Shown here one piece after another: positions 28,203 through 31,352 of a stretch of 45,113 bases of DNA. Location of the stretch: NCBI GenBank assembly GCA_027013295.1, contig JALUXP010000093.1, forward strand, positions 1-45,113, in the 5' to 3' direction. Position numbers and translations under genes: made by a program. Numbering within the stretch: the first letter of the stretch is position 1; each line of letters begins with the position of its first letter. The notes under the pieces are model-generated. The model ran no database searches, was not told the DNA's origin, and saw only the letters and a list, made by a program, of their open reading frames with translations. This stretch comes from Sulfurimonas sp. GTDB taxonomy: Bacteria > Campylobacterota > Campylobacteria > Campylobacterales > Sulfurimonadaceae.

Positions 28203-29060
28203 ATGACTATAGATAAAGAGTGTATTGAGTGCATCATTAACCAAAGTGTTAAAGTTTCACAAGCGATAGCTGCTGATGAAAATCTCTCCAAAAAATTAAC
28301 CACTACTGTTCGCAATATGTCAAAAGATTTTTCTTTTAACGATACACCTCCAGAGATCGCTTCCTATGTTTACGAGAAGATGGCTCTTCTAGCAAATAAA
28401 ACTGACCTTTATGATGCAGTGAAAGCTCTCTCAACACAAAAAGCTCTCTCTTTTGTCCCTTTAGTCAAAGAGCATCTTAAAAACTCTCACGATAAACTTC
28501 TCACGGCAACCAAAACAGCAGTCGCTGGAAATGTCATAGACTTAGCTGCTGCTGTAGAATTTGACTTGGAAGAGGAATTGGAAAAGATTTATGATGTCGA
28601 TTTTACCTATGATGATTTGGAGAGTTTGAGATTAGAACTGCAAAGTGCTAAGAGTGTCTTAGTGATTGGCGATAATGTAGGGGAACATATCTTTGACTAT
28701 GTTTTTATCCAGACACTTCAAAACTTATATCCTAAGATAGAGTTCTCTTATATGGTGAGAGGTAACCCTATCATCAATGATGTTACGATGAAAGAAGCAT
28801 TAGAAGCTGGTTTTGACAAGCTTTGTAACTTAGTAGATAGTGGTGTAAATACACCAGGGTTTACTTATGAAAGAGCATCTTCACAAGCTAAAAAACTTTT
28901 TGATGAAGCAGACTTAGTGATAAGCAAGGGGATGGGAAATTATGAATGTATGAGTCCATCTCATAGAAAAGATATCTGTTTTTTACTCAAAGTAAAGTGC
29001 AATGTAGTTGCTGCATCTCTAGGTAAAAATCTTGGTGATATTGTTTGTAAAATGGTCTAA
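28203..29060 (+). CDS. DUF89 / damage-control phosphatase (ARMT1-like) family protein
   Basis: IDKECIECIINQSVKVSQ; SVLVIGDNVGEHIFDYVFIQTL; MVRGNPIINDVTMKEALEAGF; DLVISKGMGNYECM. Confidence 0.88.
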   Translation: MTIDKECIECIINQSVKVSQAIAADENLSKKLTTTVRNMSKDFSFNDTPPEIASYVYEKMALLANKTDLYDAVKALSTQKALSFVPLVKEHLKNSHDKLLTATKTAVAGNVIDLAAAVEFDLEEELEKIYDVDFTYDDLESLRLELQSAKSVLVIGDNVGEHIFDYVFIQTLQNLYPKIEFSYMVRGNPIINDVTMKEALEAGFDKLCNLVDSGVNTPGFTYERASSQAKKLFDEADLVISKGMGNYECMSPSHRKDICFLLKVKCNVVAASLGKNLGDIVCKMV

Positions 29061-29425
29061 TGGTGATTTACATAATCCATTTTAAGTCTATTTGCCTCTC
29101 TTTTTTTTCTCCACAACTTTAGAACAGATTTTGTTGAGAGAGAGTGTGCATTACGGCTGCTAGCTCTTTTTACTCCACTAATATATTTTTTACCAGATGG
29201 GGCTAGGCTATTGCCTCTTATCTCTGCAAGTTCATAGTTTTTTGTAACTGGGTTATACCGAAGTATCTCACCATCGGCACTCTCTATCCAATGCAAGTGT
29301 TCATCACCCCTTGGATGTCCACTAAATATCTCACCGTTTTTTTGTGTATAAACTCTTGATCCGTCTCTTGCTGGTGCACTAAAGAGTACACTTACTAAGG
29401 TAAATAAGATAAATATATATTTCAT
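29057..29425 (-). CDS. Secreted protein resembling a free-standing M6 metalloprotease N-terminal (pro)domain
   Basis: Signal peptide MKYIFILFTLVSVLFSA, then PARDGSRVYTQKNGEIFSGHPRGDEHLHWIESADGEILRYNPVTKNYELAEIRGNSLAPSGKKY, which resembles the N-terminal region of M6 metalloproteases ('TQ.DGt.f....GDE..HW.et.DGy'). Confidence 0.7.
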   Translation of the reverse strand: MKYIFILFTLVSVLFSAPARDGSRVYTQKNGEIFSGHPRGDEHLHWIESADGEILRYNPVTKNYELAEIRGNSLAPSGKKYISGVKRASSRNAHSLSTKSVLKLWRKKREANRLKMDYVNHH

Positions 29426-29433
29426 AATTTCTC

Positions 29434-30723
29434 CTAATTTATATCTAAAGTCATGGCAACACCTTGCGCACTTATGTTTGAGATATTTGCATCTGCTGTA
29501 TATAGTGCATCAACATTGCCACTGTAAAAAAGAGTATTCCCGTTGCCATTTTTACCACCATCTACATAACCACCCTGTTTTGCATCAACTATACTGACAC
29601 CTTTGTTGTTCTTATCTGCATTGACACTATTGTTATCAAGATATGCTTGTGTGGTTTTTGTGTCATCTATCTCCCAGATAGCAAGCCCTCCGCTAAAGTT
29701 GCCATCAAGAAAGTAGAAACCCTTATCGTAGCCACTATTGTCTCTGTTTTCAAGCAAGTAGTATTTTGAGCCATTTTGTACTTTTACTACATTGTAACTT
29801 GTGAGTGAAGTTGCATTCATCACCTTTGTCCCTTTTGTCTCATCTGGCATTACCCACTTGTTATAGACTTTAGACCAAGCACTCATATGTACAGGGGATT
29901 CTCCAGGATACTGTGTATCATTAGCATACGCCCAAATCCCTGCACCCATCAAGCCAAAAGCACCTATCCCTCCACCAAAGTAAAGGTCCGGAAGGTTAAA
30001 AGCAGAGTGACCTAACTCGTGAGCAATGATACCAATAGTTGCATCATGGGGTGCATGAATATCATGTTTTTCTCCAAAAAGTGCAAAATTACCCTGACCG
30101 CTACATTTTAGAAGGCTTACTCCATCAACAATGGGTGCTATGGAACTATCATCAATACAGCCTTTTTGTGCCCAGATGCCGTTGGTAACATGTTGTCCCT
30201 CATAAGCATCTTCATAACCAGCGATGATAAAAGTGATGAGAAGTTCATCGTAGCTAATATAGCCATCTCCATTATTGTCATAAGCACTAAAAGAGATTTT
30301 ATTTTTTAGTGCACTTAAGGCTAAGGCTAGATCTGGATAGATATTTGCTATATTTTCAGCATTTGGATGATTTTTTCCTAGATTGATAGAGGCTATTCCG
30401 TTGCACCCAGTTGCTTCAGAAAATTCAAATTGATTTTGACTTATTTCTCGATAATAATTGTTAAGTTGTCCTTGTTTTTTCCCAAAAATTTTTGAAGCCC
30501 AAGTTGTTAAATCTGAAGAAATTTGAACATTTTTGTAACTAAGAAGAACAACAAGCATCGGTCTATCTGTCGCACTACTAACAGTTGTTATCTTGGAACT
30601 AGCACACTGGCTTGAAAAAGGGATGGAAGCTGTATAGATATTTGTCACAGCACTCTGATTTGCATCATTCGAACAGCTATTGAGAAACAATAAAGAGAAA
30701 AATAATAACAATAACTGACTCAT
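29434..30723 (-). CDS. M6 family metalloprotease-domain lipoprotein
   Basis: Lipobox-like LFLNSC; EF-hand-like YDNNGDGYISYDELLITFIIAGYE; zinc site GIIAHELGHSAFNLPDLYF; LMGAGIWAY; WSKVYNKWV. Confidence 0.9.
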   Translation of the reverse strand: MSQLLLLFFSLLFLNSCSNDANQSAVTNIYTASIPFSSQCASSKITTVSSATDRPMLVVLLSYKNVQISSDLTTWASKIFGKKQGQLNNYYREISQNQFEFSEATGCNGIASINLGKNHPNAENIANIYPDLALALSALKNKISFSAYDNNGDGYISYDELLITFIIAGYEDAYEGQHVTNGIWAQKGCIDDSSIAPIVDGVSLLKCSGQGNFALFGEKHDIHAPHDATIGIIAHELGHSAFNLPDLYFGGGIGAFGLMGAGIWAYANDTQYPGESPVHMSAWSKVYNKWVMPDETKGTKVMNATSLTSYNVVKVQNGSKYYLLENRDNSGYDKGFYFLDGNFSGGLAIWEIDDTKTTQAYLDNNSVNADKNNKGVSIVDAKQGGYVDGGKNGNGNTLFYSGNVDALYTADANISNISAQGVAMTLDIN

Positions 30724-30761
30724 TTTAAACCTTGTATTCTTTATTATACTATAATCGTGTT

Positions 30762-31352
30762 ATGAAAATGTTAATCATAATTTTATCTACACTTTTAAGC
30801 CTAAGTCTTTTTGCAAATGATGACAATAATGTAAGTGCAGATGCTGGAAAAAGAGCTGGTTTTTTTGTAGGGCTTAGTGCTGGGTTCGCTTACCAGAATA
30901 TGAACTTTTTAAGTAACTCGAAGTCAGAAAGAGAAGACTTATATAGTGGTGCTAGTAGCAGTTTTAAGGCTGGTCTTTTTTTAGATGAGCATTTTGCAAT
31001 TTTTTATAGTAACTATACAACTTTTTTTAGTGCACCATATAAAAATGCTAACTCATATACAGATAAAATATATCTTGATACACTTAGCGGTATAGGGGTG
31101 AGCTATTTTTTTACCGAGAATAAGAGTTATTTTATCTCAGGAAGTGTAGGCAGTGCTATATTTAACACATTAGGTAAAAATAATTTAAACTTTGGAAGTG
31201 CCTATTTACTCTCTTTTGGATATGAATTAGATAACAATATAAATATAGAACTCGTTGTAAAAAAAGCAAGCAAGTACAACTCTCGAGAGTATGATTTTTT
31301 GTCCGTAGATGCACAAAGTACGCAAATCTTGGTTGGTTATACATTTTATTAG
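30762..31352 (+). CDS. Outer-membrane beta-barrel protein
   Basis: Start at internal Met (MKMLIIILSTLLSLSLFAN signal peptide); amphipathic strands, ends LVGYTFY*. Confidence 0.65.
   Translation: MKMLIIILSTLLSLSLFANDDNNVSADAGKRAGFFVGLSAGFAYQNMNFLSNSKSEREDLYSGASSSFKAGLFLDEHFAIFYSNYTTFFSAPYKNANSYTDKIYLDTLSGIGVSYFFTENKSYFISGSVGSAIFNTLGKNNLNFGSAYLLSFGYELDNNINIELVVKKASKYNSREYDFLSVDAQSTQILVGYTFY

Follow-up and report, generated by a model that had tools for sequence, protein, structure and literature searches.

A predicted M6 metalloprotease lipoprotein of Sulfurimonas and its N-terminal domain appear to be encoded by two adjacent genes

The window analysed here, a stretch of 45,113 nucleotides from a Sulfurimonas sp. 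contig (JALUXP010000093.1), carries on its reverse strand a predicted protease gene followed directly by a gene for a small protein. The features of the locus are as follows:

29434..30723, (-) strand: M6-family zinc metalloprotease lipoprotein of 429 aa, predicted from a TIGR03296 match over the cut-off
29426..29433, (-) strand: intergenic gap of 8 nt, TAG-GAGAAATT-ATG, read from the sequence
29057..29425, (-) strand: putative stand-alone M6 N-terminal (pro)domain protein of 122 aa, assigned by homology to fused M6 N-termini

The positions, strand and sizes of the two genes, as well as the 8-nt gap, had been given exactly in the original prediction. The ribosome-binding sequence of the small gene abuts the stop codon of the protease gene (TAG-GAGAAATT-ATG), which suggests that the translation of the two genes may be coupled. 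The small gene and a convergent gene (28203-29060), which appeared DUF89-like by eye, share 4 nt at their ends (29057-29060), where the stop codon of the small gene lies, and no terminator-like site was found there. On the other side of the pair lies a divergent open reading frame (30732-31352, with a TTG start as listed), which by eye resembles an outer-membrane beta-barrel protein. The ATG at 30762 is its likelier start, and would leave about 38 nt between the divergent starts of this gene and the protease gene.

By its sequence, the 429-aa protein is a member of the M6 metalloprotease family, and it is predicted to be proteolytically active. It matched TIGR03296 over residues 58-336 with 113.3 bits (curated cut-off 110.8), and its zinc motif, HELGHSAFNLPDLY, consists of HExxH and a downstream Asp. 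The motif had the same 14-residue length in 76 of 77 distinct sequences, the remaining one being cut off at a contig end. Among solved structures, the protease profile best matched immune inhibitor A (InhA, PDB 4yu5; E 1.1e-8), which likewise has an M6 catalytic domain, and an EF-hand-like loop matched EF-hand_1 with an E of 1.8e-4, under the Pfam gathering score. An AlphaFold single-chain model of the protease, based on 3 sequences, was poor, with a pLDDT of 33.5. The protein had been described as starting as a lipoprotein and going quickly into its catalytic region, and this description held: the lipobox, LNSC, departs slightly from the typical form at -2, a lipobox pattern occurs in at least 40 of the 58 paired proteases described below and, by eye, in most others too, and the short N-terminus is real.

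The secretion of the 122-aa protein, also predicted originally, is supported by a signal peptide I, in which the cleavage site was placed by eye between LFSA and PA. Behind it follow a beta-rich core (residues ~20-83) and a predicted C-terminal helix; a low-confidence AlphaFold model (4 sequences; pLDDT 57) shows beta-strands and then a helix at residues 98-121. Searches of 27 such small proteins against Pfam and NCBIfam gave no credible match, and membership in a known family was rejected, the scattered weak matches varying between members. A profile of the small proteins had no match in the PDB. A cysteine switch seems unlikely, since these proteins have no conserved cysteine (5 out of 60 contain one after residue 25). 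Two orphan copies of the small gene (L107, 1653-2186, and L111, 2228-2725) are located away from any protease, and they have in common an extra conserved C-terminal tail, ILNTKSS.WKEVLKEK.

The small protein had been thought to look like the segment usually fused to the N-terminus of M6 proteases, and this was confirmed by sequence comparisons. A tblastn search of 7.3 Gb of plasmid records with the single 122-aa query gave one match above noise, with an E of 2e-3, the rest having an E of 5 or worse. The matching region lay within the first 100 residues of a Monoglobus protein of 754 aa, whose residues 156-452 matched TIGR03296 with 75.1 bits (8.5e-21), below the curated cut-off. To this protein were added full-length M6 proteins encoded on Pseudoalteromonas and Acaryochloris plasmids, as well as one from L080, a divergent contig of our survey. 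When 518 open reading frames were searched by hmmsearch with profile A1, built from 27 small proteins, none of which was taken from fused M6 proteins, the five fused M6 proteins were the exact top five (E 1.6e-12, 1.1e-10, 5e-9, 6e-4 and a marginal 0.18), and all five matches were at the N-terminus, ahead of the catalytic domain. Four of these proteins still gave 31.5, 29.4, 19.3 and 13.2 bits with a core profile without the signal peptide, and the fifth one, from Acaryochloris, gave 3.9 bits, within noise. The maximum for 100 column-shuffled core profiles was 2.4 bits, which rules out that the small protein resembles M6 N-termini by chance. The alignment of the small-protein profile with the fused M6 N-termini by hhalign had a probability of 98.5%, and a pattern of roughly FTQ.DG-GDE-DG-YN-YEYA-L..SG is common to both. 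These comparisons show a clear homology between the small protein and the N-terminal part of full-length M6 proteases of other phyla, namely those of Monoglobus and Pseudoalteromonas and, marginally, that of Acaryochloris.

The fused M6 proteases (TIGR03296-type proteins of Monoglobus, Pseudoalteromonas and Acaryochloris, and, by literature, presumably PrtV) are of the same catalytic family as the protease of the window, but in them a single chain carries the domain ahead of the catalytic part, whereas the split family has two genes, with that of the protease preceding that of the domain. The window and 57 other pairs of our family survey have the domain encoded by a separate downstream gene and not in the same chain as the catalytic domain. 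Searched with the small-protein core profile, the split-family proteases showed no significant copy of the domain, in agreement with the proposal that the N-terminal domain is missing from the protease chain. Within the family survey, only one M6 sequence, L080, contained the domain itself; L080 is a divergent fused protein and, together with L104, represents one M6 protein with this domain in N-terminal position, cut across contigs 377 and 517 of genome G026. In the catalytic-domain tree, the split-family proteases were placed apart from the fused M6 proteins and from two Alphaproteobacterial M6 proteins, and L080 grouped with the fused Pseudoalteromonas and Acaryochloris proteins. Given this grouping, L080 probably stems from a transfer or from contamination by a foreign contig. 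In the two Alphaproteobacterial M6 proteins the domain was not detectable, either fused or nearby, indicating that not every M6 enzyme needs it. No M6 relatives were found in viral contigs and phages. The spacing between HExxH and Asp in the split family (HELGHSAFNLPDLY) is one residue longer than that in a Phyllobacterium M6 protein (HEFGHFLGLPDLY); the longer form also occurs in the fused proteins of Pseudoalteromonas and Acaryochloris and in L080, and the shorter form in the Monoglobus protein.

The sequence comparisons indicate that the protease has lost a built-in N-terminal domain carried by its relatives, and that this domain is now a separate small secreted protein. A simple frameshift had been considered improbable in view of the protease-first order. 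A frameshift or a split gene can be ruled out not only by this order but also by the presence of a separate start and signal peptide in each of the two proteins, and by the recurrence of the arrangement in many genomes. As the pair recurs in dozens of genomes, it is not a chance one either.

The conservation of the pair was surveyed in 200 genomes of the family, with contigs 61 and 113 of G182, and contigs 377 and 517 of G026, counted as one gene each, cut by the contig end. The M6 gene was present in 59 of the 200 genomes, and 58 of these 59 contained the small gene as well, while none of the family genomes without the M6 gene contained the small gene. Directly downstream of the M6 gene and on the same strand were 58 of 60 small genes, and 0 of 60 were upstream of it; in 55 of the 58 distinct pairs the gap was from -4 to +18 nt. 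The expected co-occurrence and gene order in related genomes were thus both found. In an order-wide sample, an M6 match exceeded the cut-off in 14 genomes, and all of these, including members of two other families, also contained the small gene; it occurred without M6 in no genome, and was absent from two genomes with weak M6 matches only. A phylum sample was consistent with this pattern of co-occurrence in the family and the order. We regard the protease gene and the small gene, on the grounds of their layout, as a conserved operon, and infer that they are co-transcribed.

Eleven proteases had no adjacent small gene, and every genome with such a protease keeps a small gene elsewhere. In G048 the protease and the small gene are both present on different contigs, and on contig 3 of G003 (L064) two tandem M6 protease genes are followed by one small gene. 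All these cases fit a diffusible partner. The unaccompanied proteases were scattered through the tree, some of them beside a paired copy from the same genome. The trees of the two partners were congruent: the distances in the protease and small-protein trees correlated with r = 0.76 (2000 permutations, all ≤0.25), and the same nine-pair clade appeared in both trees, with support of 0.998 and 1.0. Species history alone would give some correlation. However, G150 has two pairs, one in each clade, and each of its proteases was placed with the small protein of its clade, indicating that the congruence does not reflect only species history.

We favour, with somewhat better than even confidence, the interpretation that the two genes encode one protease zymogen as two chains, the small protein being a trans-acting periplasmic prodomain that serves both as a folding aid and as an inhibitor. 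The M6 catalytic part would be exported as a lipoprotein without a prodomain, and the domain, encoded by the following gene of the same operon, would reach the periplasm on its own as a soluble protein. In the periplasm the small protein would bind the catalytic domain in trans, and the bound domain would aid the folding of the protease and block its active site, an effect that would end with the degradation or release of the domain. The function of the fused domain as a prodomain is suggested by its position and by the processing of PrtV. Purified forms of this M6 protease of V. cholerae start at residue 106 (PMC2613228), so there is a documented case among M6 proteases in which an N-terminal region of such a length is removed. 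In these Sulfurimonas-like bacteria it is probably a partner, and not a part of the enzyme itself, that folds the protease or keeps it in check. Since some genomes have two proteases and a single small gene, one may also imagine an obligate two-chain zymogen, in which the catalytic lipoprotein would be unable to fold alone and one soluble prodomain would serve several proteases per cell; this extended version is doubtful.

Propeptides normally act once, within the same chain, and that of InhA belongs to the same chain as the catalytic domain. SpeB of S. pyogenes and the staphopains are made with their own propeptide; as in the pair described here, the gene of the secreted protease is coupled to a neighbouring one that encodes a small partner (Spi and staphostatin, respectively). 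In contrast to the M6 zinc protease without the domain, SpeB and the staphopains are cysteine proteases of unrelated families. Spi and the staphostatins are characterized by a papain-like cysteine protease target with its own propeptide, and the split M6 pair includes no such enzyme. Following their logic, the small protein might be only a periplasmic inhibitor that protects the producer cell, with the protease folding unaided, which we consider unlikely. Protease-plus-inhibitor operons are known for SpeB-Spi, staphopain-staphostatin and the C10 proteases of B. fragilis (PMC3462683), and their downstream gene order and small partner resemble those described here, although inhibitors of the Spi/staphostatin type are thought to act on the premature enzyme in the cytoplasm (PMC3462683). 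The Plasmodium protein SUB1-ProM and further subtilisin-propeptide-like inhibitors are, similarly to the small protein, stand-alone propeptide homologues that have a signal peptide and whose genes lie near those of proteases, and SUB1-ProM is a potent inhibitor (PMC6993865). However, SUB1, which is a subtilase and not an M6 enzyme, keeps its own propeptide (PMC6993865), as do the C10 proteases (PMC3462683), whereas the split M6 proteases have none. If M6 catalytic domains need help in folding, an inhibitor-only role would leave this job to nothing else.

Still less probable is that the small protein is not a prodomain but a permanent accessory subunit, e.g., for substrate binding or stabilisation, and the enzyme a heterodimer. 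A stable complex would fit the very tight co-occurrence and the cognate pairing equally well, but in the fused relatives the domain is N-terminal, right before the catalytic domain, which is the usual place of a propeptide, and the secreted PrtV, by analogy, lacks its N-terminal 105 residues. That the small protein now acts on a target other than the neighbouring protease, the operon being a leftover of shared ancestry, is very improbable: the two orphan genes away from a protease, both with the extra tail, could be read in this way, but nearly every small gene comes right after an M6 gene, no genome lacking M6 contains one, and the two trees agree.

In the literature searched, which included few of the subscription journals, we found no report of an M6 prodomain acting in trans. 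What distinguishes the pair from the known operons and inhibitors is that its protease belongs to the M6 family, that this enzyme no longer contains the domain, and that the reversed order of the genes is conserved. With the putative prodomain encoded by a separate conserved gene and the enzyme devoid of its own copy, folding and inhibition can be tested with two clean components. The pair also illustrates how gene fission and a reversal of order can make a propeptide a possible regulator, and it provides a first annotation for an unnamed family of small proteins and for an unmodelled N-terminal domain of M6 proteases. If one prodomain did serve several proteases, it would be a shared cellular switch for surface proteolysis. 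Four unaccompanied family proteases (L077, L090, L092 and L102) have N-terminal extensions of ~360-500 residues, which by eye contain cadherin-like or other repeats and are unrelated to the small domain.
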